Shown: piece by piece, positions 15,678 through 58,776 of the stretch
Numbering within the stretch: position 1 is the stretch's first letter
Layout: every line of letters begins with the position of its first letter
Assembly (NCBI RefSeq): GCF_000175935.2
Contig: NC_014840.1
Span: forward strand, 124,001 to 188,000
Origin: Pantoea sp. At-9b
GTDB taxonomy: Bacteria > Pseudomonadota > Gammaproteobacteria > Enterobacterales > Enterobacteriaceae
Reading direction: 5' to 3'
DNA length: 64,000 nucleotides
The notes under the pieces: model-generated
Told to the model about the DNA's origin: nothing
What the model saw: the letters and a program-made list of their open reading frames with translations, nothing else
Databases searched by the model: none
Made by a program: the position numbers and the translations under genes

Positions 15678-15683
15678 AGCCGC

Positions 15684-32346: not shown

Positions 32347-32365
32347 AGTTGCTCCGTTAGCCCTT

Positions 32366-37733: not shown

Positions 37734-38975
37734 ATGTCGCAAACCGATTCTGGCTGGGGTGCTGCCCCTACAGCAAATTACGAACAACTGGCGCAGCAGT
37801 TTCGCCCACTGTTTGCCGACATCCGTGCCGGCGCAATTGAACGCGAATTGCAGCGGCAGTTGCCGTTCGAACAGATTGCATGGTTGAAGCAAAGCGGATT
37901 CACCGCGCTGCGGGTACCGAAGAGCGCCGGCGGCCAGGGTGCCACCCTGCCAGAACTTTTTAACCTGCTGATTGAGTTGGGTGAAGCGGATTCCAACCTG
38001 GTGCAGTCCATACGCGGCCATCTTGGCTTTGTGGAAAATGTCCTCAGCAGCGGCAACAACACCTGGCGCGATACCTGGCTGTCACGTCTGGGGCGCGGTG
38101 AAATTGTCGGCCCTGCCTGGAGTGAAACTGGCGAAGCCCGTCAGTCCACCTTTTCTACCCGCATTCAACGTAGCGGCAACCAGTGGCAGCTGAATGGCAA
38201 AAAATTCTATACCACCGGCTCCCTCTATTCGGACTGGATCGACGTCGGCCTGACAGATGAAAACAACCAAGGTGTCTCCGTCACCGTGTCACGTACCGCT
38301 CCCGGCGTGATGGTACTGGATGACTGGGACGGTTTTGGTCAGACGCTGACGGCGAGCGGGACGGCAATCTTTGACAACGTCGTGATTCAGGATGACGACA
38401 TCAACGAAGAAGCCCACTTCAAATATTCGCCCGCGTTCTTTCAACTGGTCCATCTGGCGACCATTGCCGGGCTGGGACGAGCGCAAAGTAGCGAAGTTGC
38501 CGCGCTGGTGGCAGCTCGAAAGCGCACTTACAGTAACGGCAATGCGTCGCGTGCGGCGCAGGATGCGCAGATCCTTCAGGTCGTCGGACGTCTGCGCGGC
38601 GCAGCCTATAGCAGTGGTGCCATTGTGCTGCATGCTGCCCATGCGCTGGAACGTGCGTTTGTGGCACAACAAAGCGGCGATCAGGAGCAGGCTAATCATG
38701 CGGTTGCGATCGCCGAACTGGAGGTTTCTCAGTCGCTTAACGTCGTTACTGACCTGCTGCTGAATGCCAGCTCCATCCTGTTTGATGCGCTGGGGGCGTC
38801 CGCCACGTTAAAACCGCTGGGATTGGATCGCTTCTGGCGGAATGTCCGTACTTTGTCTTCGCACAATCCACGCGTCTACAAAGACCGGATCGTCGGTGAT
38901 TTTGCGGTGAACGGCACATTGCCACCCGAACAATGGCGTATTGGTGTGGCCGATATCGATAGCGACATAAAATAA
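37734..38975 (+). CDS. Acyl-CoA dehydrogenase-fold flavoprotein, DszC/SfnB-like
   Basis: A 413-residue protein of the acyl-CoA dehydrogenase superfamily, in the branch of flavin monooxygenases (DszC, SfnB) found with sulfur-scavenging genes. The N-terminal helical part (LPFEQIAWLKQSGFTALRVP, LPELFNLLIELGEADSNLVQ), the middle flavin-binding segment (NGKKFYTTGSLYSDWIDVG) and the C-terminal SSHNPRVYKDRIVGDFAVNG are characteristic. ATG 37734 follows GGGAG; a TTG six codons upstream is rejected. It diverges from an ABC/LLM module, so an S-oxygenase or desulfurising role with reduced flavin is likely. A true acyl-CoA dehydrogenase role is less likely because no beta-oxidation genes are near. Confidence 0.85.
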   Translation: MSQTDSGWGAAPTANYEQLAQQFRPLFADIRAGAIERELQRQLPFEQIAWLKQSGFTALRVPKSAGGQGATLPELFNLLIELGEADSNLVQSIRGHLGFVENVLSSGNNTWRDTWLSRLGRGEIVGPAWSETGEARQSTFSTRIQRSGNQWQLNGKKFYTTGSLYSDWIDVGLTDENNQGVSVTVSRTAPGVMVLDDWDGFGQTLTASGTAIFDNVVIQDDDINEEAHFKYSPAFFQLVHLATIAGLGRAQSSEVAALVAARKRTYSNGNASRAAQDAQILQVVGRLRGAAYSSGAIVLHAAHALERAFVAQQSGDQEQANHAVAIAELEVSQSLNVVTDLLLNASSILFDALGASATLKPLGLDRFWRNVRTLSSHNPRVYKDRIVGDFAVNGTLPPEQWRIGVADIDSDIK

Positions 38976-42704: not shown

Positions 42705-43937
42705 ATGACTGAAATTATCCCGGTGGTGAGCCTGGCGGCATCTGCATCTGACAATGCCGCAGAGTCAGTCCCTTATCCCTTCGTCCTTCCTCCCGATCGT
42801 CCTTCAATCAAGGGACCCGCGGGCATTTTCTACGACTTCAATGATGGCGTGCGGATCCTGCTGCCCGCAGGGCGCTGGCGTGTTGCCATACTGGACAACG
42901 ACTCAGACAACATCCTGTTTCATTGTGAGTCCGGGGCGGGCTGGGTCACGTCGGCAAAGAAGTATTTTGTCTGTTTCCGCATCCAGGTCTGGCGTGGTGA
43001 TGAAAAGGTTCCCTTGCTGGATGAAACCCTGTCATTGAAAGGCCGGGACGTACTGATTTCTTTCCCCACCGGCACGCTCGGCGACCTGCTCGGCTGGTTT
43101 CACTACGCAGAGCGTTTCCGCGTGCGACACCAGTGCCAACTGGAATGCGTAATGGCACCGAACATCATTGCCCTGCTGGAAGGCCAGTACCCGGATATAC
43201 GCTTCTCCAGCCCGGACGCCGTCGTGCAGCGTTCCCCGTATGCCACATATCGGGTTGGCTTGTTCTTTGGCGGCAACGATACCCACCAGCCGATTGACTT
43301 CCGCCAGACCGGTTTCCACCGCATCGCCGGACATATTCTCGGCGTGGACCCTCGCGAGGCGCCCCCGCGCCTCAACCTGAGCGCGCCGCGCACCATCACC
43401 GAGCCTTATGTCTGCATCGCTGTCCAGTCCACCTCTCAGGCCAAGTTCTGGAACAACGGGCACGGCTGGGCGGAGGTGGTGGCGCACCTGAAATCTCTGG
43501 GCTACCGGGTACTGTGCATTGACCGTGAGGCCCGCACCGGTCGCGGCTTCGTCTGGAATCACATCCCCTTTGGCGCCGAAGACTTTACCGGCAACCTTCC
43601 CCTGCAAGATCGGGTGGACCTGCTCCGTCACGCCAGTTTCTTTATCGGCCTGGCCAGTGGACTGTCCTGGCTTGCCTGGGCAGCACAGATACCGGTGGTG
43701 CTTATCAGCGGATTCAGCCTGCCGGGTGCCGAATTTTATACACCCTGGCGGGTGTTCAGCAGTCACGGTTGCAGCGGCTGTTGGGACAGCCTGCAGGAGA
43801 CCTTCGACCATCGGGACTTCTTTTGGTGTCCCCGTCACAAGGGAACCGACCGACAATTCGAGTGCACCCGCCTGATTACCGGAAAACAGGTCTGTCGCGT
43901 AACTGACCAGCTCCATGCGCAACTGCATGGGCATTAA
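42705..43937 (+). CDS. Autotransporter O-heptosyltransferase (TibC/Aah/BAHTCr family)
   Basis: A 410-residue cytoplasmic glycosyltransferase of the GT9-like family that transfers heptose from ADP-heptose onto serines of AIDA/TibA-type adhesins before export. The C-terminal iron-finger cysteines are recognisable: Cys356, Cys359 (CSGC), Cys375 (FFWCP) and Cys387 (FECTR). In TibC four such cysteines hold a ferric ion and support a dodecamer. The nucleotide-binding part includes FPTGTLGDLLGWFHYAERF and YVCIAVQSTSQAKFWNN. GGAG precedes the ATG. It is 60 bases upstream of the autotransporter gene, its expected substrate, and probably shares its transcript. Confidence 0.95.
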   Translation: MTEIIPVVSLAASASDNAAESVPYPFVLPPDRPSIKGPAGIFYDFNDGVRILLPAGRWRVAILDNDSDNILFHCESGAGWVTSAKKYFVCFRIQVWRGDEKVPLLDETLSLKGRDVLISFPTGTLGDLLGWFHYAERFRVRHQCQLECVMAPNIIALLEGQYPDIRFSSPDAVVQRSPYATYRVGLFFGGNDTHQPIDFRQTGFHRIAGHILGVDPREAPPRLNLSAPRTITEPYVCIAVQSTSQAKFWNNGHGWAEVVAHLKSLGYRVLCIDREARTGRGFVWNHIPFGAEDFTGNLPLQDRVDLLRHASFFIGLASGLSWLAWAAQIPVVLISGFSLPGAEFYTPWRVFSSHGCSGCWDSLQETFDHRDFFWCPRHKGTDRQFECTRLITGKQVCRVTDQLHAQLHGH

Positions 43938-43997
43938 AAAACTACACACAAGGTGACCTGTTCACCTGCATACAATAAAACAAAGAGAGACTGGGAA

Positions 43998-46900
43998 ATG
44001 AATAAGGCTTACAGGATTGTCTGGAGCGCTGCGCGTCAGGCGTGGGTAGTGGCATCAGAGCGCGCCGGCAGCGGTGGACGTCCACCGTTGGCGGTAAAGA
44101 AGGCGGCAGGCGCAATCCTGCTGCTGGGGGCTGGTATCGCATCACAGCCAGTCTGGGCGACATATTACATGGGCACCGTTGTTTCAGGAGCCGGCGTCTC
44201 GCAAACGCTTAACAATGGTGATGACGCAGAAAATGTTACTGTGACCAGCAATGCCCGGCAGTACATCAGTGCCGGTGCTGAAGCAACGTTAACGACAGTG
44301 ACCAACAGTGGCAATCAGGTGATTTACTCCGGGGGCTTAGCGTATTCGACGACGTTAAGTGACAGCGGATCTTATCAGTACGTCAACAGTGGTGCCGAGG
44401 CATGGTTCACAACGGTCAACAATGAGGCAACACAATATGTCTCAGCGGGTGGTTACGTTTACTGGACCATCCTGAGTAGTGGCGGCACTCTCGAACTGAC
44501 GCCGAATGCCTCGGCTTATGATATTACCGTGAATTCCGGCGGGCGAGCGCATATTGCTGGTGGTTCAGCCGGTTGGATAACGCTGAATTCAGGTGGTGCC
44601 TTAACGGTAACAGCTGGCGGTGTCGCCACGGCTATCTCTCAGCTGGCTGGTGGGGCATTGACGGCGGATACCAGTACCACGCTTGACGGCAACAATAGCC
44701 TCGGCGCATTTTCTGTCAGCGGCGGGCAGGCCAATAACCTGCTGCTGGAGAATAACGGCATATTCAGTGTGCTGTCCGGTGGTAACGCGACGAATACCAC
44801 CGTTGGCTCCGCAGGGTTGGCTGTCGTTATGAGCGGCGGCACGGCTGACGGCACCACCGTGAATAGCGGTGGCAGACAGATCATTTACAGTGGTGGCTCC
44901 GCTACCGCTTCAATACTCAATGGCGGACTGGAAACGGTAGAGGGGACGGCAACGGGCACCACCATTAACCAGTATGGTGAGCAAGACGTCAACACGGGTG
45001 GTCTGGCCATTGGCACTACCATCAATTCAACGGGTACTCAGTATGTCTACGGCACGGCCACTTCCGCCATCGTGAATTCCGGCGGTGTGCAGTATGTGCA
45101 GAGCGATGGCAGTACCAGCGCCACCACCGTGAACAGCGGTGGCTACCTGACGATCTACGGCGGAGGCTCCTCCACCTCTTCAATACTTAATGGTGGACGG
45201 GAGACGGTAGAAGGAACGGCCACGGGGACCACTATTAACGAAAATGGCGAGCAAGACGTCATTATCGGGGGCCTTGCCACCAGCACTGTCGTCAATTCTG
45301 CGGGTACTCAGGAAGTCTATGGCAGCGCCACGGCTACCACCGTGAATTCTGGCGGTGTGCAGTTCGTAGAAAGCGGTGGCAACGCCAGCGCAACGACCGT
45401 CGAGGGCGGAAACCAGTTCGTCGTCAGCGGCGGTACAGCAACTGGCACGGTGGTGAATGCGGGCGGCCAGCTGAATACCTACGGCAGTGTGACCTCCGCC
45501 ACCCTTAATGCTGACGGTAGAATGTTCCTCTACGGTACAGGATCGACAGTTTCGACGCAGATCAATTCGGGTGGCAGCGAGTATGTCAATTCAGGTACAT
45601 CAAGCACTTCCGCCACGGTGAATGCAGGTGGCTACCAGACGGTATACGCCGGAGGATCAGCCGTCGCTGCTACCGTGTCAGGTGGTACTCAGCAGGTCTT
45701 CGGTGAGGCCACGTCAACCACGCTGAATTCCGGCGGCGCGCAGTATGTTTACAGCGGCGGTACGGCGACCGATACGCTGATCGGCAGTGGTGCCGCGCAG
45801 GGCATCTCCGGGACGGCCAACTCAACCACGGTCGCGGCTGGCGGTGCACAATACGTTTACAACAGCGGCAGTGCGAACTGGACCACCGTGACCAATAACG
45901 GTTACATGAACGTCATGAGCGGCGGCGCTGCGTCGGGTACCAAAGTGAACTCCGGAGGCACGCTGTCTGCCAATGATGGTGCTGTCGTCACCGATTTGAC
46001 GCTGGCATCCGGCGCAGTGCTGAATACCACCACCAGTGCAACCTTGGCCGGTACCAACGCGCTCGGTGCCTTTTCCATCAGCGGCGGGCAAGCGCAGAAT
46101 GTGCTGCTTGAGAACAACGGCTTCCTGAACGTGGAAACCGGAGGCACGGCAACCGGAACGGTCATTAATCAGGGCGGCTGGGAATACATTAACGGCAGTG
46201 CCACCGGCACCACCGTGAATTCAGGCGGATTGCAGTCGGTGACATTCGGTGGCACCACCACTGATACCGTGGTGAACTCAGGCGGTGAGCAAGATGTCGC
46301 GGGCACCGCCATCTCAACCACCGTCAACTCCGGTGGTACGCTGACCGTGTTTAACGGCGGCCTCGCCTCCAGTTCTGTCATCAACAACGGCGGCCAGCTA
46401 ACGGTTAACAGTGGTGGTACCGCTACTGACACAACGGTGGCGTCGGGTGGCCTGCTGAACATTGCTGACGGCGGCATTCTGACGCTCGCAAACAACGGCT
46501 TCGTGAACGACGGCGTTACTACCTATGACACCAGCACCGATGTCGCGCTGAACACCACCATCTCCGGCAGCGGGCAACTGACCAAGAACGGTTCCGGGGC
46601 ACTCACGTTGGGTGGCACCTTTAGCCAGTCGCAGGTTAACCTGAATGACGGTTCGTTGATCATGGACGGCCTGCAGGCCACCACCAACATTGTGGCACAG
46701 TCCGGTACGTCCCTGTCGCTGGTCAACAGCACCACCCTGACCGGTATCATCGACCCGACTGACGTGAGTATTGACCAGAGCAGTAGCTGGAACATCACCG
46801 GCGACTCACTGGTAGATACCCTGACTAACGCCGGCAGCATCACCTTCGTTCCGTCGCAAGGGGCATTTACCCCTTATACCCTGACCGTGACCAATCTGGT

Positions 46901-48227
46901 CGGCAATGGCGGCACCATCACGATGTATACCGTGGCGGGTGACAGCAGTTCACCGACCGATAAACTGGTGATCGACGGCGGGCAGGCGACGGGCAGTACC
47001 GGACTGCTGGTGCTGAACCGCGGCGGGCTGGGTGCCCAGACCACCGGCAACGGCATCGCATTGATTGAGGCGATTAACGGAGCGACGACAGATGTGGGCG
47101 CGTTCACCCTCAATCAACCGTTGGTGGCCGGTGCGTACTCTTACACCCTCTACCGCAATGCCGATCAGAGCTGGTATCTGACTTCCCAGCTGACGCAAAC
47201 CCCTGACACAGATACCGGCACCACGGATCCTGATGACAGCGGTTCCACACCGTCCACTGGCGTGACTGAACAGGCGAACTACCGCGACGGTATGTGGAGC
47301 TACGCGGCACTGCCGTCGCTGTCGCTCGACTTCGATCGCCTGGTGGCAGGTTCGGCTGACACGCGTTTCCATTATGCACCGGACAGCCGGATGTGGGGAC
47401 GTCTGGCAGCAGGCCAGTCCCACCATGCTGACAGTGGAACCCTGACCGGCGGCAGCGTGCCGCAAAGCAACAGCGCGTATACCTTCCTGCAACTGGGTGG
47501 TGATCTCTGGCAACTTGACGGCGCAAATGCCGACTGGCGGGCAGGTGTCTATGCGGCCTCCGGTCTGATGCGTAGTGACGTCTGGCGCGACCATGGCCGC
47601 AATGCAGCGGGTACGGACCGCGACACAGCCTATACCGGCGGTGCCTACCTGTCGGGCCGCAGTCACGCGGGCTTGCATCTTGACGGCCTGGTACAGGCAA
47701 CGCACCACAGCATCTCGACCGATTCGAACGACGGCACACGCCTGTCAACCAACGGTACCGGCTGGCTGGCAACGGCGGAAATCGGGCAGGCCTTCAGCGT
47801 GGGATCAGGTCTGTCACTGGAACCGCAGTTGCAGTACACGGTACAAGGCCTGAGTCTGGATGATGGGCAGGATGGCGCGGCCTCACTCAACTGGTCCGAT
47901 ACTCACCGTCAGTCGGTGCGCGCCGGACTGAAGGTGGGTACGTCGGAGGATACCAAGGCGAAGTTAAGCTGGTGGGTAACCCCATCGTTAACGCAAAGCT
48001 ACGGTGGTCATAGCGGGGTAACGGCATCAGTACCGGGCGTGGCGGATTCAGAAGCGTCATTCCGCAGCAACCTGTCAGGCACTGGCGTCGGGATCAACGG
48101 TGGTGTGGATGCACATATCCGTCAGAACGTGACGTTGGGTGTGCAGGCAGGCTGGTCTGATGCACTGCACGGCGGAGAATCCGGCGGCTACTACGGTCAG
48201 GTCAGACTGGGTGTGTCGTTCCGGTAA
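43998..48227 (+). CDS. AIDA/TibA-type autotransporter adhesin with ESPR signal and strand-loop-strand repeats
   Basis: A 1409-residue type Va secreted adhesin. Residues 1-54 form an extended signal peptide (MNKAYRIVWSAARQAWVVASE, then a hydrophobic core, cleavage near QPVWA). From about 60 to 880 run imperfect repeats of roughly 19 residues with the pattern GTxVNSGGxQxVxSGGxA, the glycosylated strand-loop-strand beta-helix. A linker rich in Asp, Thr and Pro (about 1064-1095) leads to a beta-barrel of about 280 residues that begins near MWGRLAAGQ and ends LGVSFR. The last residue is Arg after the usual terminal Phe, which is unusual. ATG 43998 was chosen for the ESPR motif. The preceding heptosyltransferase should modify it; adhesion, aggregation or biofilm formation is the likely role. 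Confidence 0.95.
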   Translation: MNKAYRIVWSAARQAWVVASERAGSGGRPPLAVKKAAGAILLLGAGIASQPVWATYYMGTVVSGAGVSQTLNNGDDAENVTVTSNARQYISAGAEATLTTVTNSGNQVIYSGGLAYSTTLSDSGSYQYVNSGAEAWFTTVNNEATQYVSAGGYVYWTILSSGGTLELTPNASAYDITVNSGGRAHIAGGSAGWITLNSGGALTVTAGGVATAISQLAGGALTADTSTTLDGNNSLGAFSVSGGQANNLLLENNGIFSVLSGGNATNTTVGSAGLAVVMSGGTADGTTVNSGGRQIIYSGGSATASILNGGLETVEGTATGTTINQYGEQDVNTGGLAIGTTINSTGTQYVYGTATSAIVNSGGVQYVQSDGSTSATTVNSGGYLTIYGGGSSTSSILNGGRETVEGTATGTTINENGEQDVIIGGLATSTVVNSAGTQEVYGSATATTVNSGGVQFVESGGNASATTVEGGNQFVVSGGTATGTVVNAGGQLNTYGSVTSATLNADGRMFLYGTGSTVSTQINSGGSEYVNSGTSSTSATVNAGGYQTVYAGGSAVAATVSGGTQQVFGEATSTTLNSGGAQYVYSGGTATDTLIGSGAAQGISGTANSTTVAAGGAQYVYNSGSANWTTVTNNGYMNVMSGGAASGTKVNSGGTLSANDGAVVTDLTLASGAVLNTTTSATLAGTNALGAFSISGGQAQNVLLENNGFLNVETGGTATGTVINQGGWEYINGSATGTTVNSGGLQSVTFGGTTTDTVVNSGGEQDVAGTAISTTVNSGGTLTVFNGGLASSSVINNGGQLTVNSGGTATDTTVASGGLLNIADGGILTLANNGFVNDGVTTYDTSTDVALNTTISGSGQLTKNGSGALTLGGTFSQSQVNLNDGSLIMDGLQATTNIVAQSGTSLSLVNSTTLTGIIDPTDVSIDQSSSWNITGDSLVDTLTNAGSITFVPSQGAFTPYTLTVTNLVGNGGTITMYTVAGDSSSPTDKLVIDGGQATGSTGLLVLNRGGLGAQTTGNGIALIEAINGATTDVGAFTLNQPLVAGAYSYTLYRNADQSWYLTSQLTQTPDTDTGTTDPDDSGSTPSTGVTEQANYRDGMWSYAALPSLSLDFDRLVAGSADTRFHYAPDSRMWGRLAAGQSHHADSGTLTGGSVPQSNSAYTFLQLGGDLWQLDGANADWRAGVYAASGLMRSDVWRDHGRNAAGTDRDTAYTGGAYLSGRSHAGLHLDGLVQATHHSISTDSNDGTRLSTNGTGWLATAEIGQAFSVGSGLSLEPQLQYTVQGLSLDDGQDGAASLNWSDTHRQSVRAGLKVGTSEDTKAKLSWWVTPSLTQSYGGHSGVTASVPGVADSEASFRSNLSGTGVGINGGVDAHIRQNVTLGVQAGWSDALHGGESGGYYGQVRLGVSFR
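44851..45390 (+). repeat. 270-bp tandem duplication inside the autotransporter passenger
   Basis: Bases 44851-45120 and 45121-45390 align at a constant offset of 270 (90 codons), for example CACCACCGTGAA at 44852/45122 with one change, GGAGGCTCC-like at 44891/45161, and GGCGGTGTGCAG at 45081/45351. It is an in-frame unit of several 19-residue repeats, so the passenger has grown by recombination. Confidence 0.8.
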
Positions 48228-48764: not shown

Positions 48765-50069
48765 TTATACCGCTGTTTGTCGCAACGGAGCCAGTTCAAG
48801 GCTGCTGCGGAAATCATCGCCCTGATAATCCGTGTCCAGTAGCTTCCTGCGACGCAGTTCCGGTAACAAGCCGTTCAGTAATAAATCCTGCTGATCCGGT
48901 TGTCCCAGCCCATGCAGGGAAATCACATCCAGCACCCCGGCCTGATAACGTTGTTCAATGGCATCCGCCAGCGTGGCAGGCGTCCCGGCAACAAACCAAT
49001 GCCCGGTCTCTTCTGCTTTAATAATCAGCTCACGCAAGGTCATTCCTTCCAGCGCATACTGGCGGAAAATCGCGGCGCGGCCCTGACGGCGCTGTACCTG
49101 CGCCACTTGTGGGATCAACGCGGCAGGCAAGGGACGATCCAGCGGTTGATCGTGCAAATCCACCTCGCCGCCGAGCATATCCGCCACGCGCAACCGGCCC
49201 TGCTCATAGTCGATGCGTTCATGTTTTTCTCGCAGACGACGCGCCACATCCGCGTCGCTGTCTCCAATAATCGAATGGAATGAGTTCATGATCAGCGGTG
49301 GATGATGCTCACGTCCGAAACGCCGCGCACGCTGGTGTACGTCCGCCACAAACGCCTGTGCCGCTTCAAAGCTGGGTTGTGAGGTGTAGATCACCTCGGC
49401 GTAGCGCGCCCCCAGCGTGACACCTGCCTCCGATTGTCCGGCCTGGAACTGCACCGGGCGACGTTGCGGTGAAGGCGGTACATTCAGTGGTCCCGCAACC
49501 TGGAAATAGTCGCCCCGATAGTTGATCGGGTGCAGCCTGGCAGGATCAATGCGTATCCCGCCACTGGCGGTGCGCTGTGCCGCTTCGCGTTCGTTCGCGT
49601 CATAAAGCGCATTCATCACCTCGATAAACTCCGTGGCACGCGCATAGCGTTCCTGCGGTGGCGGCAGCGGGCTGTCGCCAAAATTCTCCTCACCAACGGA
49701 AGAGGTTACCGCATTCCAGCCTGCACGCCCGCCGCTCAGGTGATCGAGCGTACCCACCTGGCGTGCCAAATGGTAAGGATGCAACCAACTGGTGCTGACG
49801 GTGGCGATCAAACCAATCTGTGACGTGGCCTGACTCAGTGCCGCGAGCACCATCAGCGGATCCTGGCTGCCGGTGGTGCCAGCCAGTCCGGCAGGATCGG
49901 CCTGTAATAAATCAGCGGTAAATAACCCGGTGATCTTCTCGCGCTCTGCAATTTTTGCCAGTTCAATGGCGCGCGCGATGCCCAGCCCCGGCTGGCTGTC
50001 ATTGCCTGCCGAAATGACGCTGCTGGCACCCACCAGCGTCTTGAGTTTTCTGCGATAGGGTTGCGACAC
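48765..50069 (-). CDS. LLM-class flavin-dependent monooxygenase (NtaA/SnaA/DszA family)
   Basis: A 434-residue enzyme and last gene of the operon. Family segments are ITGLFTADLLQADPAGLAG, HLSGGRAGWNAVTSS and SPQRRPVQFQAGQSEAG. The start is GTG 50069 with GGAG six bases upstream, 10 bases after the M20 gene; no ATG in this frame gives a better N-terminus. It differs from the other LLM enzymes here in lacking the usual SYL/SPL insert after GWN.VTS (it reads SSVGEENFG), so the active-site rim and substrate probably differ. As the second LLM enzyme of one operon it may handle a second class of thioether or a later oxidation step. Confidence 0.9.
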   Translation of the reverse strand: MSQPYRRKLKTLVGASSVISAGNDSQPGLGIARAIELAKIAEREKITGLFTADLLQADPAGLAGTTGSQDPLMVLAALSQATSQIGLIATVSTSWLHPYHLARQVGTLDHLSGGRAGWNAVTSSVGEENFGDSPLPPPQERYARATEFIEVMNALYDANEREAAQRTASGGIRIDPARLHPINYRGDYFQVAGPLNVPPSPQRRPVQFQAGQSEAGVTLGARYAEVIYTSQPSFEAAQAFVADVHQRARRFGREHHPPLIMNSFHSIIGDSDADVARRLREKHERIDYEQGRLRVADMLGGEVDLHDQPLDRPLPAALIPQVAQVQRRQGRAAIFRQYALEGMTLRELIIKAEETGHWFVAGTPATLADAIEQRYQAGVLDVISLHGLGQPDQQDLLLNGLLPELRRRKLLDTDYQGDDFRSSLELAPLRQTAV

Positions 50070-50079
50070 GGTGTTCTCC

Positions 50080-51279
50080 TTATGGCCGCGTAAAATCAGC
50101 TTTGATGGCTTGCAAGGCCCCGGCATCGGTCAACAGACGCAGGCCGGTGCGAGCCAGTACCCGCGCACCGATCAGCAACGCCTGATAACCCCGTTCCGAG
50201 TTAGCGGCTTCACGAAAGGGCACGGTGTGGAAAATCAGATCGTCGGGACCGATCTTCAGCCAGGGATGTGCGGTCGGCACCGCGTGGCTGATATCCCCGG
50301 CATCCGTCGAGACTTTGTTCTTTTGTGGCGACAGATCGACCTGTTCACCCGCAGCGGTGAGTTCTTCCAGCAGCAGCGCATCCAGCGCCGGATTCAGGCG
50401 AAAATCGCGCGGACCAACCTGATGATCGATCTCAACCCGGGTGCCGGTAGCCAGCGCAACGCCTTTGGCAATCGCGCGCAGGCGCGGCTCCAGCAACTCC
50501 AACTGCTCGCGGCTGTCGGCACGGATGTAGTAATGCGCTGAGGCATATTCCGGGATCACATTCGGTGCCTGGCCGCCGTTGGTGATAATGCCGTGCACAC
50601 GCACGCCATCCGGTAGTTGCTGGCGCAGTACGCTGATGCCGTTGTACAGCAACACCAACGCATCGAGCGCGTTAATCCCTTCATGCGGCGCACTGGCGGC
50701 GTGCGACGGCTTACCGTAGAAGTGAAAATAGAGGTGATTATTCGCCAGCGTGGCTTCAGTAAGGCGTGTTTTCCCGGCGGGGTGCACCATCAGCGCCGCA
50801 TCAATCCCTGTCAGTAATCCCGCCTCAACGAAACGTTTTTTCACATTGCCTTTCGGACCGCCCTGTCCCGCCAGACCGCCTTCTTCCGCAGGCGTGCCCA
50901 GTACCACTACCCGCCCGCCGGTTTCCGCCAGCACCTGTGCCAGGGTGATGGCCGCCGCCACGCTGGTGGTGCCAATCAGGTTGTGGCCGCAGGCATGACC
51001 AATCCCGATCAGCGCATCGTATTCCGCCAGAAAAGCGATGGTCGGCCCCGGTTTGTCGCTACTTTTCTCCGCGTAAAAGGCGGTTTCATGCCCGGCAACA
51101 TTACGCGTCACCCGGAACCCCTGCGCCTGCAACAACCCGGTCAACTGTTCGCTGGCGAAGTATTCATTGTTGCCGGTTTCCGGGCGCTGAAAGATGGTTT
51201 TGGCGATGGCAATGTACTGTGCGCTGTGGTGTTCAAGGCTGCTTGCCAGCGCCTGCTGCCAGTGGGTGATATCGCTCAT
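50080..51279 (-). CDS. M20 family metallo-amidohydrolase (SndA/YxeP/AbgB-like)
   Basis: A 399-residue cytoplasmic hydrolase with two-domain M20D architecture. Metal-site residues are visible: Cys97 and His99 in HACGHN, the pair Glu132-Glu133 in PAEEGG, a His in MVHPAGKT and the late FHTVPFREAANSE. The dimerisation domain begins near HFYGKPSHAASAP. ATG 51279 is one base after the upstream stop. Relatives deacetylate N-acetyl-cysteine derivatives (SndA, YxeP) or cleave aminobenzoyl-glutamate (AbgB). Between two LLM monooxygenase genes and with a GNAT gene at the operon head, N-deacetylation of a modified cysteine is the most economical reading. Confidence 0.9.
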   Translation of the reverse strand: MSDITHWQQALASSLEHHSAQYIAIAKTIFQRPETGNNEYFASEQLTGLLQAQGFRVTRNVAGHETAFYAEKSSDKPGPTIAFLAEYDALIGIGHACGHNLIGTTSVAAAITLAQVLAETGGRVVVLGTPAEEGGLAGQGGPKGNVKKRFVEAGLLTGIDAALMVHPAGKTRLTEATLANNHLYFHFYGKPSHAASAPHEGINALDALVLLYNGISVLRQQLPDGVRVHGIITNGGQAPNVIPEYASAHYYIRADSREQLELLEPRLRAIAKGVALATGTRVEIDHQVGPRDFRLNPALDALLLEELTAAGEQVDLSPQKNKVSTDAGDISHAVPTAHPWLKIGPDDLIFHTVPFREAANSERGYQALLIGARVLARTGLRLLTDAGALQAIKADFTRP

Positions 51280-51280
51280 A

Positions 51281-52618
51281 TCAGGCCACCTGCTGACGGC
51301 GCTGCCGGGCAAATTGGTTCTCCGGCGCGGTTAGCCCGAGGTTTTCGCGTAGCGTCGTCCCTTCGTATTCGGTGCGATAAATCCCGCGCTGTTGCAGCAG
51401 CGGAATGACCTGTTCAACGAAGTCATCAAAGGCGGTTGGCGTGCCGCCACGCACGATAAATCCATCGGTCGCTCCGGCGAGGAACCACTGCGCCAACCCC
51501 TCCGCTACCTGTTGTGCGGTGCCGAGGAAACTGGGACGCGGAGTGGCTTCTTCCAGCGCCACCTGGCGCAGCGTCAGACCACGAGCCTGGGCATTACGTT
51601 TAATGGTGTCGGTGGTGCTGCGGAAACTGTTCTCGCCGAGATCGCCGATCTGCGGGAAAGGTTCATCCAGCGGGTACTGGCTAAAGTCGTGATGTTCAAA
51701 GTAGCGGCCAAGATACGCCAGCGCTTTATCGATGGTCACCAGCTCGGCGGTTTGCTGGTAACGTTGCTCAGCGTCCTCTGCGGTCGCGCCGATGATGACG
51801 CTGATCCCCTGGAAGACGCGAATATCGTCGGCATCTCGCCCCTGCGCCACCAGACGGCGGCGCACGTCTGCGCGGAACTCACGCGCCTGCTCCAGCGTTT
51901 CCTGGCGCGTATAGATGGCATCGGCGGCTTCTGCGGCAAACGCTTTACCGGCTTCTGAGGCTCCAGCCTGGAACACAATCGGCCTGCCCTGCGGTGAACG
52001 ACCGACGTTGAGCGGTCCCTGCACGGAGAAATAGGTGCCTTTGTGGTTAAGGGTGTGCAGTTTGTCAGGATCGAAAAACTGTCCACTGCTTTTATCCCTG
52101 ACAAACGCATCCTCTTCCCACGAATCCCACAGGCCTTTGACCACCTGCAAATATTCGCTGGCGACACGATATCGTTCATCATGTTCGGGATGAGTGGCAC
52201 GCGAGAAGTTCCTCGCCGAGCCTGCCAGGGGTGAGGTGACCACGTTCCAGCCGACACGGCCACCACTCAGATGATCAAGACTGGCAAACTGACGCGCGAC
52301 GGTAAAAGGCTCGCTGTAGGAGGTGGAGAGTGTCGCGACCAGGCCAATTTTCTTTGTCACCAGCGACAGCGCGGACAACAGGGTAATGGGTTCAAAACGA
52401 TTGAGAAAATGGGGTATCGACTGGGGCGTGATATACAAACCATCGGCGACGAACAGAAAATCAATTTTCGCCTGTTCGGCTTTGCGTGCCAGATCCAGCA
52501 CATAGTCCACGTTGATGCTGGCATCCGGCACCGCATCCGGATGACGCCAGGCCGACATGTTGCCGGACGCGCCCTGAATAATGGCCCCCAGCCGCAGCTG
52601 GCGTTGTGTCTGACTCAT
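51281..52618 (-). CDS. LLM-class flavin-dependent monooxygenase (NtaA/SnaA/DszA family)
   Basis: A 445-residue enzyme with [61 protein letters not shown] and a C-terminal [24 protein letters not shown] 52618 follows AAGGAG and comes 10 bases after the fused ATPase stop. It is close in pattern to enzymes that oxidise N-acetylated S-alkyl or S-succinyl cysteine (CmoJ, YxeK) and to NtaA. It needs a flavin reductase not encoded here. In the operon model it would cleave the C-S bond after GNAT acetylation and before M20 deacetylation. Confidence 0.92.
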
Positions 52619-52628
52619 ACAATGCTCC

Positions 52629-54242
52629 TTAATATGTGATTGCAGGCTGCCAGTCCGGCAGCACCGGCAACGCCTGTAATAGTTTTTGCGTCCAGGGATG
52701 CTGCGGCGTGGCAAAGACTTCGCGGATCTCCCCGCTTTCCACCACCTGCCCGTCCTGCATCACCAGCACCCGGTCGGCCAGATGCTGGATCACCCCCAGG
52801 TCATGCGAAATAAACAGCAGTGCCGTGCCGTGTTCGGCCTGCATTTCTGCCAGCAGATCGAGCACCTGCGCCTGTACCGACACATCAAGGGCGCTGACCG
52901 GCTCATCCGCCACCAGCAGCGCCGGGTTTGGCGCAAAAGCGCGGGCGATCGCCACCCGCTGCCGCTGACCACCGGATAACTGCTGCGGATAACGTTGCAG
53001 GAAGCGTTCGCCAAGCTGCACTTCATCGAGCAACTGACGCACGCGCTGGCGACGGGCATCGCCATAAATCCCCACGCTGTCGAGGCTTTCGCCGATGATT
53101 TTTTCCACCGTGTAACGCGGATCGAAGGAACTGAACGGGTCCTGCGCAATGAATTGCAGACGGGCGCGGCGCGCGCGGCGGGCTTTTTCGCTGATGTGCT
53201 GCCAGCGACTGCCTTCCAGCAGCAGCGTGCCGCTATCTGGCTCAGTCAGTCCCATGACCACTTTGACCAATGAAGTTTTGCCGGAACCGGACTCGCCCAC
53301 CACGCCAAGGGTTTCCCCGGCGTGCAGACGGAAGCTGATGTCTTTCAGCACCTGACGATCACCATAGGTTTTATGCAGGCCGATGGCTTCCAGTAACGGC
53401 GCGGCTCCCGGCTGAGGGCGCGCGGGCAATGGTGTTGGTTCGGCCGCACTGAGGCGTAAACCACGCGTGGCGGGCGTGGGCACCGCACGCAGCAGGCGTT
53501 GCGTCCAGGCATGACGAGGACGATGCAGCAGTGGGCCACTCTCGCCCTGCTCCACCACTTCACCATCGCGCATCACCAGCACTCGGTCTGCCAGCTCGGC
53601 AACCACCGCCAGATCGTGACTGATCAGCAGCAGGCCATGCCCTTCACGCCGCCGTGCGGCGAGAAGCTGGAGAATCTGACGTTGCACCGTCATGTCCAGC
53701 GCGGTGGTGGGTTCATCGGCGATCAACAATGCCGGACTGCCCGCCAGCGCACTGGCTATCAACGCACGCTGGCGCTGACCACCGGAAAGTTGATGGGGAT
53801 AACGCGCGAGGCGACTTTCCGCATCCGCGATCCCCGCCGCACGCAGCAGTTCAAGGCTTTTCTGTTGCAACGTCGCCGGGCCACGATAACCGGCGGCGGT
53901 CAGGGCATCCGCCAACTGCTGACCAATGCGGCGTAGCGGATCGAGAGAAACCAGTGCATCCTGCAACACGTAACCGATACGGCGGCCACGCAGGGCGCGC
54001 CAGTCATGGCGGCTGGCGTTCAGCATGTCGCGTCCGTCGATGACAAACTGGTCGGCGCTGAGTTGCGCCCCTTCCGGTAGCAAGCCAAGCAGGCTCCGGG
54101 CGGTGAGGGTTTTTCCCGAGCCGGACTCGCCCACCAACGCCACGGATTCGCCCGGCCATACCTGCAAGCTGAGATTTTTAACCACCTGCTGGGGACCAAA
54201 GCGAATGGAAAGATTACGGATATCAATCACTGGCTGGCTCAT
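52629..54242 (-). CDS. Peptide-type ABC transporter ATPase, fused DppD-DppF type
   Basis: A 537-residue double ATPase. Domain one has [24 protein letters not shown] and [11 protein letters not shown]; domain two (after about residue 285) has [24 protein letters not shown] and [11 protein letters not shown]. The first signature is the canonical GGQRQ, unlike the GGLRQ of the two paralogues. The start overlaps the permease stop by four bases. It drives the importer formed by the products of 54239-57693. Confidence 0.93.
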
Positions 54243-55072
54243 GAGGTTCTCCCTTCAAAACGTGCCTGCCAGTAGCGGCCCAGCGTATTCACGGCAATCA
54301 CCGTCAGGGTAATAAACACCCCCGGCCAGACCGCGATCCACCAGGCGTTACGCAGGTAGTTCCGTCCTTCTGCCAACATCAGGCCCCACTCCGCCGTCGG
54401 CGGCTGCGGCCCCATGCCAAGGAAACTCAATCCCGCCGTACCAATAATCGCCGTCCCCAGCCCCAGCGTTGCCAGCGCAGGCACCTGCGCGATGGCATGC
54501 GGCAGGATATGACGAACGATCAGCGTAAAGCGCGACAAACCAAAGGTGCGCGCCTGTTCCACATAGCCGGAGGTCATCACGCGGTAGGTCTGCGCGCGCA
54601 CCACGCGGGCAAAGCGCGGTACCGAGGCCACGCCGAGCGCAATAATCAGGTTGTTGGTCCCGGGGCCGGTAAACGCAATCAGCATCAGCGCCAACAACAG
54701 ATCGGGAAAGGCTGAGATGACGTCAACCGCACGGCTCAACAGCTCGTCCAGCACACCGCGCGCCAGCGCGGCGGTTAAGCCCAGCAGCGTGCCGAACAGC
54801 ACCGCCAGCGCCATCGCCGCGACGCTGATCAGCAACGAATAACGGCTGCCGTAGATCACCCGAGTCAGCAGATCGCGCCCCAGTTGATCGGTGCCCAGCC
54901 AGTGCTGGGCCGAGGGCGGTAACTGCGCATTAACCGGATCGGCCAGCAGCGGGTCACTGGACGTCAGCCAGTGCGGTGCCACAACTGCCAATGCCACCAG
55001 CAGCAGATAGAGGATCGCGATCCCTACCGTGGCAGGCAGCGCGGCAGGAAAGCGTTGCAGGATGGCTTGCAT
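54239..55072 (-). CDS. Peptide-type ABC transporter permease, DppC family
   Basis: A 277-residue inner membrane protein showing AQHWLGTDQLGRDLLTRVIYGSR, about six spans and the coupling loop ARTFGLSRFTLIVRHILPHAIAQ. Its start shares a base with the DppB-type stop (TAATG). It is shorter at the N-terminus than its paralogues at 19674 and 34000. Confidence 0.93.
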   Translation of the reverse strand: MQAILQRFPAALPATVGIAILYLLLVALAVVAPHWLTSSDPLLADPVNAQLPPSAQHWLGTDQLGRDLLTRVIYGSRYSLLISVAAMALAVLFGTLLGLTAALARGVLDELLSRAVDVISAFPDLLLALMLIAFTGPGTNNLIIALGVASVPRFARVVRAQTYRVMTSGYVEQARTFGLSRFTLIVRHILPHAIAQVPALATLGLGTAIIGTAGLSFLGMGPQPPTAEWGLMLAEGRNYLRNAWWIAVWPGVFITLTVIAVNTLGRYWQARFEGRTS

Positions 55073-56061
55073 TATTTGCTCTCCCCACGCAAACGCGGAT
55101 CAATCCACAGCGCCAGAATGTCCACCAGCGTGCTCATCACCACGTAAATCAGCGCCGAGAGGATGGCAACCGCCAGCACCACCGGCAGATCCTTCGCCAG
55201 CACTGCATCCACCGTCAGCTTGCCGAGTCCGGGACGACCAAACACCTGTTCAGTGATCACCGCCCCACTCAACAGCCCTCCCACCAGCCAGCCGGTTAAG
55301 GTCACCGCAGGCAGGGCGGCGTGGCGCAACGCATGCCGCAGCCGAATCGTGGTTTCACCCACGCCCCAGGCGCGAAGTGTCAGGGTAAACGGGGACTCCA
55401 GCGCGCGTTCCAGTTCACGGCGCAGCACCTGCGCGATGACTGCCCCTTGGGCGAGGCCGAGCGACAATGCCGGGAGCACCAGCGAGGAGAGATGACGGTC
55501 GCCCGCCACCGGAAACCAGCGCAGCGTAAAGCTGAAGATAAACAGCAGGACGATCCCCATCCAGAACGAGGGCGTGGAGGCCAGCAACAGTTCCAGACCA
55601 TTGGCGATCCGGCGGCCCCAGCGCCGATGCGCCGTGGTCACCGCGATCGTTACGGCAAATACGGCACTGACCAGCAGCGCCGCAAGGGTGAGTTTCAGGG
55701 TGGGCCACAACTGCGTCGCCAGCAGTTGGCTTACCTCGGTGTTGAGGATGTAAGAACGTCCGAAATCGCCGTGCAGCACTCGCCACAGATAATGCAGATA
55801 CTGCCACCACAGCGGTTCGTTCAGCCCCCATTCAGCGCGGATCGCCGCCTCTATCGCCGGTGTGCGGATCTGCTCCCCAATCAGCAGGCTGACAATGTCG
55901 CCCGGAGCCAGATGCACCCCAAGAAACGCCAGGGTAACAGCCGCCCACAGCACCAGCACGCCACCGAGCAGGCGCGCAACGATGCGGCGCGCCAGTTCAC
56001 TGCGCCACAAAACTGGCCCTGGTGTTCTGGGGTTACGGGTAATGATGCTCTCCAGACTCAT
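55072..56061 (-). CDS. Peptide-type ABC transporter permease, DppB family
   Basis: A 329-residue inner membrane protein with HLAPGDIVSLLIGEQI, RAEWGLNEPLWWQYLHYLW, GDFGRSYILNTEV and the coupling loop TLRAWGVGETTIRLRHALRHAALP. ATG 56061 follows GGAGGCGAGG; an in-frame GTG four codons up is part of that ribosome site. It begins 15 bases after the binding protein gene. Confidence 0.93.
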   Translation of the reverse strand: MSLESIITRNPRTPGPVLWRSELARRIVARLLGGVLVLWAAVTLAFLGVHLAPGDIVSLLIGEQIRTPAIEAAIRAEWGLNEPLWWQYLHYLWRVLHGDFGRSYILNTEVSQLLATQLWPTLKLTLAALLVSAVFAVTIAVTTAHRRWGRRIANGLELLLASTPSFWMGIVLLFIFSFTLRWFPVAGDRHLSSLVLPALSLGLAQGAVIAQVLRRELERALESPFTLTLRAWGVGETTIRLRHALRHAALPAVTLTGWLVGGLLSGAVITEQVFGRPGLGKLTVDAVLAKDLPVVLAVAILSALIYVVMSTLVDILALWIDPRLRGESK

Positions 56062-56076
56062 CCTCGCCTCCACGTA

Positions 56077-57693
56077 TTAGTGTTCGCTCAGCCAGACGTC
56101 GTAGACGTTTTCCGGCATCTGTTTAAAACTGCGGAACCCGACACCGTGCACATAACTGGCCGCCGCAATCTGGTCTTCCGGTTCATACAACGGCACCGCC
56201 AACGCCTGCTGCGGCAGAGCATATTGCTGGAGCTGGCTGTAGAATTTACGGCGCTGATTGATATCCAGCGTGGCAGCAGCCTGGTCGAGCCAGCCGTTGA
56301 TTTCCGGGCTGTTGACGCGGCTGTAGTTAATCGGCCCACCGGCTTTTACCGGGCGGTAGTGGTTTTCGATATCGATGCCATCGGTCTCCGTGTTGGAGTT
56401 GGCAATCGAGCCAAACTTGCCGGTATTGCGCACCTCAACGTAAGTGCCGGAATCGACATAACGCAGCTTCAACTCCACGCCCAGACGCTGGCGGGCCTGT
56501 GCCTGAATGGCCTGCAACAACACATCACGCTGGTCACGCACCGTCGCCTGCGCCTGGATCACCTCAATACTCAGACGCTGGCCGTCTTTGGTGCGGAAAC
56601 CGTCGGCATCGCGCGTTTTCCAGCCCGCGTCATCGAGCAAGGCGTTGGCAGCCGCCGGATTGTTGCCATATTTTTCTTCCAGATCGTTGTTGTAGAGCGG
56701 ATCAATCGGTGAGGTGATGCCCCAGGCGCGGGTGCGCTCACCGCGATACACCGATTTGAGGGTCGGATCGATATCCAGACCCTGTAACAGTGCCTGACGC
56801 ACCTTCACATCTTGCGTCGGTCCATACTCCACGTTAAGGAACAGTGAATACGGCGTGCCGGTATTTAATGCGTGCTGGTAGGTGAAATCACTGCTGTCTT
56901 TAAACTCACCGGCATCGTTACCGGAGATCCCTTCAATCACATCCACCTGGCCGGACAGCAATGCCCCGGTACGCACTGACGATTCCGGCAAGAATCGGTA
57001 GGTGACACGGTCGAGATACGCCGCTCCCTGATGGTTCGCGGTGGCGGGTGCCCAGTTGTAGTGGGGATTTCTGACGAAGGTAACCTGTTGGCCTTTCTCG
57101 TAGCTTTCCAGAATAAAGGGACCGGTCCCGGCGATTTCCTTGCCGCCCGCTTTGAGCTGCGATGAGTGCCAACTGGCCGGAGCGAGGATTTGTAACTTAG
57201 CGGCGAAGGCGAGGAACGGTGAATAACCCTGCTTCAGGGTGATAGCGACCGTATGATCGTCCGGGGTGCTGATGGTGGCGATACGTGCGCCGATAGCGCA
57301 CAGGCTACTACCGGCACAATAGGCCGCGTCCTGCAAATGCCGGAAGTTCTCCGCCACCGCACTGGCATCAAGCTTTTCGCCGTTTGAGAACGTCACGTCA
57401 CGCCGCAGGTTAAAACGGTAGCTTTTACCGTCCGGGCTGGCCTCATAACTTTCCGCCAGCCAGGGCACAAAGCTGCCATCATTACGACGCGCCAACAACG
57501 ATTCCCAGACGTTACGCAGCACTACTTCTGCTTTCGACTGGCCATTGAGCTGGGGATTGAACGGTACGGGCTCGGTTTCAACCCCATAAGTCAAACTGCC
57601 GCCGCTACGCGGTTGCTCGGCGGCAAAAGTATGGGATGCACTTCCCAGCAGGCAAGAGAGACCCAGCGCGAGAGTCAAGGCATTCGCTTTCAT
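56077..57693 (-). CDS. Periplasmic binding protein of a peptide-type ABC transporter
   Basis: A 538-residue SBP family 5 precursor; the signal peptide ends at SHTFAAEQPRSG. It shows YGVETEPVPFNPQLNG, AESYEASPDGKSYRFNLRRDVTFSNG and GTGPFILESYEKGQQV. It lacks the two cysteines shared by the paralogues at 21511 and 35861, though it has another close pair (AAYCAGSSLCAIG). ATG 57693 is preferred to the one four codons upstream because AAGG precedes it. It lies 27 bases after the GNAT gene, within one operon. Confidence 0.93.
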   Translation of the reverse strand: MKANALTLALGLSCLLGSASHTFAAEQPRSGGSLTYGVETEPVPFNPQLNGQSKAEVVLRNVWESLLARRNDGSFVPWLAESYEASPDGKSYRFNLRRDVTFSNGEKLDASAVAENFRHLQDAAYCAGSSLCAIGARIATISTPDDHTVAITLKQGYSPFLAFAAKLQILAPASWHSSQLKAGGKEIAGTGPFILESYEKGQQVTFVRNPHYNWAPATANHQGAAYLDRVTYRFLPESSVRTGALLSGQVDVIEGISGNDAGEFKDSSDFTYQHALNTGTPYSLFLNVEYGPTQDVKVRQALLQGLDIDPTLKSVYRGERTRAWGITSPIDPLYNNDLEEKYGNNPAAANALLDDAGWKTRDADGFRTKDGQRLSIEVIQAQATVRDQRDVLLQAIQAQARQRLGVELKLRYVDSGTYVEVRNTGKFGSIANSNTETDGIDIENHYRPVKAGGPINYSRVNSPEINGWLDQAAATLDINQRRKFYSQLQQYALPQQALAVPLYEPEDQIAAASYVHGVGFRSFKQMPENVYDVWLSEH

Positions 57694-57720
57694 ATTACCC
57701 TTCATGGTTGCAGGTGTTTT

Positions 57721-58233
57721 TTAATGTGAGGTTGCGGCACCGGTATTAAATTCCTTTTTCAGAAAAACCAATGCTTCACCTAATGGATTGGTGCGATGAT
57801 AAAAAGGTTGATAGCCGCGACGCAGATAGAGATCGCTCAACCAGGGATGTTTTGTTGCGGTCGCCAAATAAACACCCGGTGCTTTTAATGTCTCTTTCAG
57901 CAATATTTCTTCGGCCCAGTTAATTATTTCCCGTCCATAGCCCTGGCCCTTAAAATCCGGGTCGACGGCAAACCAATGAATAAAGGGCAGTGATGAAGGG
58001 GCATTGTCATCCTGTTGCCACGGGAAACGCACGGTCAGCGTCGCCACGGCCCGTTTCCACTTGCGCAGCACCAGCACCGTTTCCTGCTCAATGGTGCGCC
58101 GCACCTGATCGACATTGCCCCTGGAAATGGTGAAATGGACATCCAGTGCCACCAGTGAGGCATAAGCGCGTTGTAATAATGCAAAAACCTCTTCCGCGTC
58201 GTCGGGGGTTGCCACCAGGATGGACTGACTCAT
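57721..58233 (-). CDS. GNAT family N-acetyltransferase
   Basis: A 170-residue acetyl-CoA-dependent acetyltransferase. The acetyl-CoA loop is in FAVDPDFKGQGYGREIINWAEE, and the last conserved part is LYLRRGYQPFYHR. It is the first gene of the eight-gene operon ending at 48765 and precedes the binding protein by 27 bases. ATG 58233 is preceded by GGAAGCGGAAATA. By analogy with SnaA/YtmI and YxeL, which N-acetylate S-modified cysteines before oxidative cleavage, it probably acetylates the amino group of the imported compound or its hydrolysis product. Detoxification of another amine is the main alternative. Confidence 0.88.
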   Translation of the reverse strand: MSQSILVATPDDAEEVFALLQRAYASLVALDVHFTISRGNVDQVRRTIEQETVLVLRKWKRAVATLTVRFPWQQDDNAPSSLPFIHWFAVDPDFKGQGYGREIINWAEEILLKETLKAPGVYLATATKHPWLSDLYLRRGYQPFYHRTNPLGEALVFLKKEFNTGAATSH

Positions 58234-58776
58234 TATTTCCGCTTCCATGTTAAATCATGGGGAAATTATCAAAATCCACCTGTGTAAAGTAAAATGAAAA
58301 GAATGAGAATGGTTTGTTAAAATGTGGGAATCAGACGGGAAGTGATGATATAAAAATAACGCATAAGGTAATGAGTAATCTTCTCTTCTTCTGGTTTTGA
58401 ACATCAGGAGGGAATACGGGCGGATTTTACTACTGGCATCCATGATGTCTGCAAGGCATCAGTTCCAGATAGAAAGAAACACCCCCAGCGGCTCATTCTG
58501 CCCCCTGACGTTTAACCAGGACGTTTATCCCGAGCGTGACGGCCCAAAACCCCTGTCTCTGAAGCCAATCGCGACCCTGCCATCGCCATCCGGTTATAAG
58601 TCACATTATATTGGATGTTCTTATCACCTGAGCTACCTCTGCATTATTTATCTTACTCGCCTTAAGTGGTTTTGAAAAAACAAAAATCTCTTATCAGGCT
58701 ATTCACATCTATAGCTTTATCAAACACATTTAATGTTATAAGTTAAAGGCGTGATGGCTTAGCACAGGTAACATAA
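58234..58776. other. AT-rich intergenic region without a recognised gene
   Basis: The left part should hold the promoter of the operon starting at 58233. A 92-codon plus-strand frame at 58397-58675 has no recognisable domain, no good ribosome site and unusual composition; I do not call it a gene. The right part, AT-rich, should hold the promoter of the diguanylate cyclase gene. Confidence 0.5.

Follow-up and report, generated by a model that had tools for sequence, protein, structure and literature searches.

What does an operon do that encodes, side by side, an acetyltransferase, a family-5 ATP-binding cassette (ABC) importer, two luciferase-like flavin monooxygenases (LLM1 and LLM2) and an M20 peptidase? 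This question is raised by an eight-gene locus of Pantoea sp. At-9b, in a stretch of 64,000 nucleotides (NC_014840.1, positions 124,001 to 188,000; hereafter, the window) that belongs to a 321-kb contig, C4, of a 6.31-Mb genome in six contigs. The nearest named relatives of the proteins and DNA of the window are mostly from Pantoea. The answer that we favour, at a probability of roughly 0.55, is that the locus would be a salvage operon for S-substituted cysteines, of the Cmo type known from Bacillus, extended by a cassette of the M20 enzyme and LLM2, perhaps for S-substituted cysteinyl peptides. It would build on the Bacillus pathway, with another importer, another hydrolase and an extra, uncharacterised oxygenase as the apparent novelties.

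The initial annotation of this DNA had described eight genes in a fixed order, spaced by 27 bases or less and closed by a terminator, with no strand named. All eight open reading frames (ORFs) are present in that order between 58233 and 48765, on the minus strand; when gene starts follow those of the annotated Pantoea vagans copy, the gaps, 5' to 3' along the operon, are 27, 15, -1, -4, 10, 1 and 10 bases. The features, in the direction of the operon, are as follows.

58286..58313, minus strand: 28-base upstream block, candidate regulatory element (from the alignment of eight upstream regions)
57721..58233, minus strand: GNAT N-acetyltransferase (GNATa), first gene; PF00583, 8.3e-9
56077..57693, minus strand: extracellular solute-binding protein, family 5, of the NikA/opine side; PF00496 (SBP_bac_5)
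55072..56061, minus strand: ABC permease B; PF00528 (BPD_transp_1); top model Opp2B, 260 bits, below its cut-off of 350
54239..55072, minus strand: ABC permease C; PF00528 (BPD_transp_1); top model Opp2C, 254 bits, below its cut-off of 300
52629..54242, minus strand: fused ABC ATPase with two ABC_tran domains; PF00005 in two stretches
51281..52618, minus strand: LLM1, CmoJ/YtnJ-like flavin monooxygenase; Bac_luciferase; 580 bits to YtnJ
50080..51279, minus strand: M20 peptidase of the HmrA/PM20D2 branch (M20h); Peptidase_M20; 328 bits to HmrA 3ram
48765..50069, minus strand: LLM2, NtaA/DmoA-family monooxygenase of an uncharacterised branch; Bac_luciferase; TIGR03860, 347 bits
48716..48740, minus strand: intrinsic terminator-like hairpin of 10 pairs, 8 of them G-C, then the T-rich tail CTCTCTTTTT

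The hairpin starts 24 bases beyond LLM2. Terminator-like sites occur in this 14-kb region at the background rate of the terminator scan (14 observed versus 13.6 expected), and the one at the operon end has the most G-C pairs among the 14. Gene order, gaps and hairpin together confirm the eight-gene operon as a prediction. The upstream block has 21 to 28 of 28 matches in seven of the eight upstream regions and 14 in that of L123 (L numbers denote loci), as counted without a background control, and is a possible regulatory element common to other copies. No Rfam family reached its gathering threshold anywhere in the window.

An organosulfur function is supported by the close relationship of LLM1 to YtnJ of Bacillus subtilis, which we take to be CmoJ. 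A CmoJ-like monooxygenase had been proposed here from the outset, and the comparison bears this out: 247 of 429 ungapped positions are identical (57.6%; 57.7% by BLAST), and among solved structures YtnJ (PDB 1tvl, 6ask, 1yw1) scores 580 bits with LLM1, 3sdo, annotated as a nitrilotriacetate monooxygenase, 528 bits, and all others 321 bits or less. LLM1 also exceeds the cut-off of TIGR03860, the NtaA/DmoA model (554.9 versus 279.7 bits). Ten enzymes of the genome pass this cut-off, six encoded on contig C2 and four on C4; by identity to YtnJ, LLM1 comes first (57.7%), followed by its paralogue at locus L009 of C2 (56.3%), with the next at 45% and LLM2 at 34%. Judged by these alignments, LLM1 is a close relative of CmoJ/YtnJ, the monooxygenase that cleaves the C-S bond of N-acetyl-S-alkylcysteine sulfoxides. 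None of the ten enzymes is encoded on C1, which is at least 3.1 Mb long, and their distribution over C2 and C4 looks like sulfur scavenging retained on secondary replicons.

The M20 enzyme had initially been taken for the SndA/YxeP-type deacetylase of the operon, an assignment that did not hold. M20h scores 42 bits with YxeP (1ysj) versus 328 bits with HmrA (3ram) and about 202 bits with the Xaa-Arg dipeptidase (8xzc/7yh4), which we take to be PM20D2, whereas the M20 enzyme of L009 scores 360 bits with YxeP. Its identity to the two YxeP-type enzymes of the genome is 24% and 28%, and these two are 48% identical to each other. The motifs GHACGH at 105, AEEGG at 142, HPAG at 177 and FHTVPF at 361, in an ORF of 410 residues, presumably carry the metal ligands. 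On these scores, M20h is an M20D enzyme of the HmrA/PM20D2 dipeptidase branch, and not SndA/YxeP-like. HmrA and two further M20D enzymes reportedly act as carboxydipeptidases, chiefly on Met-X dipeptides (Jamdar 2015, as cited in PMC11511702). Since S-alkylcysteines resemble methionine, an HmrA-type enzyme beside CmoJ suggests, by analogy, that M20h may hydrolyse S-alkylcysteinyl peptides. A relative of M20h with 74% identity (L124, 7847-9166), from another genus of the same family, is the first gene of an operon that also encodes a family-5 binding protein, two permeases and two ATPases. The peptide substrates proposed at first are, then, favoured by the branch of the M20 enzyme and by this relative; the type of importer, taken alone, is no proof of them. 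At E<=1e-100, M20h was found in two of 148 genomes of the order, including that of the window.

The two monooxygenases are dissimilar, as had been said of them, with 37% identity. LLM2 is above the cut-off of TIGR03860 (347.4 versus 279.7 bits), its top PDB relative is YtnJ at 201 bits, and it belongs to an uncharacterised branch of the NtaA/DmoA family.

The importer had been called a Dpp or glutathione-type system, a name that the models do not support. The binding protein, which has a signal-peptide-like N-terminus (by eye), scores 205 bits on TIGR04028, 200.7 on NikA (cut-off 393), 148 on CntA, 104 on DppA (cut-off 1005) and 81 on GsiB (cut-off 594), all below cut-offs; NikA is the best match, with CntA- and AgaA-type proteins among the next. 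Likewise, permease B reaches 153 of 590 bits for DppB and 204 of 463 for GsiC, and permease C 187 of 483 for DppC and 218 of 484 for GsiD, so that no Dpp or Gsi cut-off is reached and the NikA, TIGR04028 and Opp2 models score higher. At the position corresponding to Arg137 of NikA, the alignment places an alanine. The importer is therefore best described as a putative family-5 binding protein system of the nickel/opine side with a different pocket. The acetyltransferase, GNATa, is 35% identical over 156 residues to the GNAT protein of a yxe-like locus of the same genome, L010.

The sister loci on C2 may supply what the operon lacks. L009 contains genes for a GNAT protein, a CmoJ (69% identical to LLM1), a YxeP-type M20 enzyme, a CmoO-like LLM of the MsnO8 family (TIGR03558; C2:564041-565171), an alpha/beta hydrolase and a TIGR04028 importer (868 bits, over the cut-off); CmoO of B. 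subtilis presumably belongs to the MsnO8 family, too. L010 contains genes for a GNAT protein, a YxeP-type M20 enzyme, an MmgE/PrpD protein and an LLM of its own, followed about 2.4 kb away by ATPase and permease genes of the amino-acid type; if YxeQ is MmgE/PrpD-like, as we take it to be, L010 looks like the yxe/scm locus of the genome. Because CmoO-like and YxeP-type M20 genes are present at the sister loci, the window operon could borrow CmoO and deacetylase in trans.

Under the favoured reading, the importer would take up an S-substituted cysteine or, more likely because of the M20 enzyme in the operon, a small peptide, for example Cys(R)-Gly left from a glutathione conjugate, and M20h would cut the peptide bond to give the free S-substituted cysteine. 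The GNAT protein would N-acetylate this product, the CmoO-like sulfoxidase, in trans from L009, would make the sulfoxide, and LLM1, with reduced flavin and O2, would cut the bond between sulfur and substituent, yielding N-acetylcysteine sulfenic acid, which would then be reduced. A flavin reductase is not encoded among the eight operon genes, and no search aimed at one was made. The acetyl group would be removed by the YxeP-type M20 enzymes of the sister loci or by M20h, and LLM2 would be a second C-S-cleaving monooxygenase for different S-substituents. We infer all of the substrates and the M20 step, as well as the trans action of CmoO and the role of LLM2, from observed gene order, families, CmoJ likeness, M20 branch and co-occurrence. 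The C-S cleavage by LLM1 is predicted from a characterised close relative; for N-acetylation, import and peptide or acyl hydrolysis the prediction comes from family membership. The initially proposed logic of acetylation, oxidation and recovery of cysteine fits because LLM1 is CmoJ-like, because the GNAT protein resembles the yxe-like one, and because CmoO-like genes are frequent in relatives of the operon.

In the Bacillus route, as described in PMC10863075, an S-alkylcysteine is acetylated, converted to the sulfoxide by CmoO and cleaved at the C-S bond by CmoJ, and the resulting sulfenic acid is reduced and deacetylated; cmoJ is named as a member of the B. subtilis operon in PMC6323116. The Cmo operon and the window operon both combine an N-acetyltransferase, an ABC importer and CmoJ, so that oxygen- and flavin-dependent C-S cleavage is expected here as well. 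In contrast to the Tcy-type amino acid importer of the Cmo operon, the window operon has a family-5 importer with a fused ATPase; it is devoid of CmoO, CmoI, RibR and SndA, and it includes an HmrA-type M20 enzyme and LLM2 that are not part of the Bacillus operon as listed. Another parallel is the route of skin staphylococci outlined in the accessible part of PMC11742315, in which Cys-Gly-3M3SH enters via a peptide transporter and is processed by the M20A dipeptidase PepV and then by a C-S lyase. This route shares the logic of importing an S-conjugated Cys-Gly, cleaving the peptide with an M20 enzyme and then breaking the C-S bond, but it uses an M20A enzyme and a beta-lyase, with no acetylation named there, whereas an M20D enzyme and a flavin monooxygenase are encoded in the window. 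The accessible texts on the Bacillus pathways (PMC10863075, PMC9706529, PMC12757645) describe no family-5 importer with CmoJ and no LLM2, and those on the Pantoea LPP-1 plasmid and on the P. ananatis pan-genome hold nothing on the operon.

We searched for relatives of LLM2 in named species genomes with a 17-row LLM2 alignment via two peptide patterns, a search that misses relatives with neither pattern, and analysed the best 80 of the 129 relatives found, together with flanking sequence of up to 10 kb per side. Partner genes were identified by tblastn at fixed identity thresholds; contig ends and dropped weak partners make the counts lower bounds. A binding protein of the window type was found in 47 of the 80 loci, a CmoO-like LLM of the MsnO8 family in 45, a GNAT gene of type a or b in 50, CmoJ in 29, M20h in ten and a YxeP-type M20 gene in seven, and a GNATa relative shares the locus with the importer in 27. 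Fourteen loci contain none of these binding protein, CmoO-like, GNAT, CmoJ or M20 genes; in two of them, L070 and L082, an importer of the L009 type adjoins LLM2 (13 loci without the window-type importer were examined). Six of the 80 (L037, L047 and the Rhizobiales loci L086, L108, L112 and L113) have the genes for GNAT, binding protein, B, C, ATPase, CmoJ and LLM2 in this order on one strand; in L086, L108 and L113, CmoO stands first. The CmoJ gene is present in 22 of 27 loci with GNATa versus 8 of 24 with GNATb. In a set of Rhizobiales loci that includes L051, L053, L057 and L058, LLM2 comes after the same importer, CmoO being present and CmoJ absent, often with GNATb divergent beside it; in Methylobacterium, GNATb directly precedes LLM2.

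Two substitute roles for LLM2 were considered and dropped. That LLM2 stands in for CmoJ in Rhizobiales is not proven: in 25 of the 80 loci the importer is present and the stretch analysed, which a contig end cuts short in some cases, holds no CmoJ, and in all 16 of these that were tested, all from Rhizobiales, CmoJ (54-57%) is present elsewhere in the genome. Overall, CmoJ was found at 54% identity or more in all 22 LLM2 genomes tested, and the CmoO-like gene at 53% or more in all seven genomes tested. That LLM2 stands in for CmoO is weakened by the CmoO-like gene in 45 of the 80 loci.

Each of the ten M20h genes in the 80 loci is paired with LLM2, and eight of these pairs directly follow MetQNI-type genes. 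In L046 and L065, further ORFs intervene, and three of them may encode an Ssu-type importer, as guessed from their size and order and a single weak ATPase match. M20h and the window-type importer were found together in none of the 80 LLM2 loci. In the LLM2 tree, the window copy forms a group with L037 and the P. vagans copies (96/91), adjacent to eight of the chromosomal M20h-LLM2 pairs. A bolder interpretation, which we advance tentatively and at well below even odds, is that LLM2 represents a new family of C-S-cleaving flavin monooxygenases working with CmoO, an acetyltransferase and a family-5 importer, and that LLM2 and the HmrA-type M20 enzyme form a cassette that is combined with various sulfur importers (of the MetQNI, the family-5 and perhaps the Ssu type), joined here to the CmoJ unit so as to convert S-substituted cysteinyl peptides to cysteine, on large Pantoea plasmids.

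Among 295 Enterobacterales genomes (thresholds: LLM2, E<=1e-140; binding protein, E<=1e-120; CmoJ, E<=1e-150; CmoO-like, E<=1e-80), LLM2 was found in four, and the binding protein and LLM1, the latter at 79% identity or more, in the same four. The chance of such a match, if there were no relation, is 3e-9, but all four genomes come from one family and three genera, which leaves far less independent evidence; G262, one of the four, carries LLM2 and the importer on separate contigs. CmoJ was found in 16 of the 295 genomes and a CmoO-like gene in 15 of the 16. The last, G300, had seemed to lack it, which suggested that CmoO might be dispensable, the operon serving ready-made sulfoxides only; under relaxed search settings a CmoO-like fragment turned up where a short contig ends, and this support was lost.

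A search for the same eight-gene order, as proposed in the initial annotation, found it on two P. vagans plasmid records, NZ_CP014127.2 and pVag1 (NZ_CP038854.1), at 87% DNA identity and annotated by family only; six of the 80 LLM2 loci have the seven-gene order without the M20 gene. The pVag1 copy lacks an annotated ATPase gene and its match is shorter by about 0.8 kb, so that this gene is probably broken. Matches to at least part of the 25-kb query occur in 18 of the 72,556 plasmid records surveyed. Three plasmids opened (pSOD02, SO10 and Erwinia E602) carry a six-gene form with CmoJ as its last gene, and two further Pantoea plasmids match the same six-gene part. Pantoea sp. SOD02 has the six-gene form on its plasmid and the M20h-LLM2 pair on the chromosome, beside MetQNI-type genes. 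L037 has a 32-residue M20 match between LLM1 and LLM2 (9932-10027; 50% identity, E 3e-5; seven loci searched), suggesting that M20h was probably lost from this operon, leaving a remnant.

Several observations weigh against the favoured reading. Neither CmoO nor a YxeP/SndA-type deacetylase, which both belong to the B. subtilis unit, is encoded among the eight operon genes. Close relatives of the operon (L037 with its remnant, L047 and the three plasmids) are without M20h; therefore, the peptide step would be an add-on. The 25 loci with the importer but no CmoJ count on the same side. The binding protein is far from all characterised ones, and GNATa is not tied to SnaA by sequence. An LLM of another type, with 340-356 residues, is encoded near the operon in L047 (1720-2790), L120 (2556-3578), L122 (1940-2962) and L126 (13628-14650); in the window genome, this type is encoded on C1 (95%), away from the operon. 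It could also be a sulfoxidase. Its assignment to the CmoO-like type was rejected, with 46-49 bits on MsnO8 (cut-off 167) and a best score of 95-100 bits on TIGR04027 (cut-off 413).

The alternative that survives best, although we consider it rather unlikely, is the same Cmo-type pathway restricted to free S-substituted cysteines or plant cysteine sulfoxides, with the amino acid itself as the cargo of the importer, M20h as the N-acetylcysteine deacetylase and no peptide step. PMC12757645 reports three redundant M20-family N-acetylcysteine deacetylases in B. subtilis, and PMC11511702 lists HmrA also among M20D enzymes with aminoacylase activity. The position of M20h directly after MetQNI-type importer genes in eight of the ten Pantoea-group loci points the same way. 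Moreover, CmoO-type genes are missing next to the operon in L037, L047 and the five plasmid copies opened, and an operon without CmoO would fit substrates that are sulfoxides already. Conversely, M20h is just 24-28% identical to the two YxeP-type enzymes, its 74% relative heads a family-5 importer operon, and, with the G300 fragment counted, all 16 CmoJ genomes have a CmoO-like gene, so that the sulfoxidase is seemingly not dispensed with.

A function outside sulfur metabolism, namely uptake and breakdown of opines, metallophores or aminopolycarboxylates similar to nitrilotriacetate or ethylenediaminetetraacetate (EDTA), we regard as very improbable. It would account for the NikA, CntA and AgaA matches of the binding protein and for the membership of both monooxygenases in a family named after nitrilotriacetate monooxygenase, including the 528 bits of LLM1 with 3sdo. 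LLM1 scores 580 bits with YtnJ versus 208 with the EDTA monooxygenase structure, though, the binding protein has the alanine at the NikA Arg137 position, and relatives of the operon carry CmoO-like partner genes. Upstream matches resembling the 19-base Fur box reach 14 of 19 in both P. vagans copies (P 0.01 and 0.04), but the best match of the window copy, 13 of 19, was attained in 7% of simulated sequences, and P ranges from 0.13 to 0.75 for the remaining five copies; Fur control is not supported. In L037, L120 and L121 the best match is located at the 28-base upstream block, and in the five remaining copies it lies elsewhere. An S-(2-succino)cysteine (scm/yxe) operon with a changed importer, for which the shared enzyme classes (acetyltransferase, LLM monooxygenase, M20 enzyme and ABC importer) and the 35% identity between GNATa and the L010 GNAT protein speak, is equally improbable, as L010 is the better yxe counterpart, LLM1 is nearer to YtnJ (the yardstick here, rather than YxeK) than the L010 LLM is (58% versus 45%), and the scm/yxe operon has a YxeP-type M20 enzyme and YxeQ, whereas the window M20 enzyme is HmrA-type.

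The window contains further clusters. At 13427-23262, on the minus strand, a second LLM cluster comprises a family-5 importer with a long ATPase gene, an NtaA/DmoA LLM (16656-18122) and amino-acid-type importer genes, that is, one monooxygenase flanked by two importers. A third LLM cluster, with its own family-5 binding protein, occupies 30967-37477 on the minus strand; divergent from it, an SfnB-like sulfur acquisition oxidoreductase is encoded at 37716-38975 (264.6 bits, below the cut-off of 430.9). A catechol 2,3-dioxygenase-like protein (29910-30890; 288.8 bits, cut-off 320.2) is encoded between two importer clusters. An AIDA/Ag43-like autotransporter gene (42705-48227) with strand-loop-strand repeats, preceded by a TibC-like O-heptosyltransferase gene, ends about 0.5 kb from the operon terminator.

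If the favoured reading is true, plant- and soil-associated Proteobacteria would recover cysteine from thiol-electrophile conjugates by a peptide-fed route, with an importer of its own and a monooxygenase family without a known reaction. It would also provide a specific guess for LLM2 and for a branch of binding proteins whose nearest curated names are those of nickel or peptide transport, and the fate of glutathione and mercapturate conjugates in such bacteria would become testable by simple growth assays.

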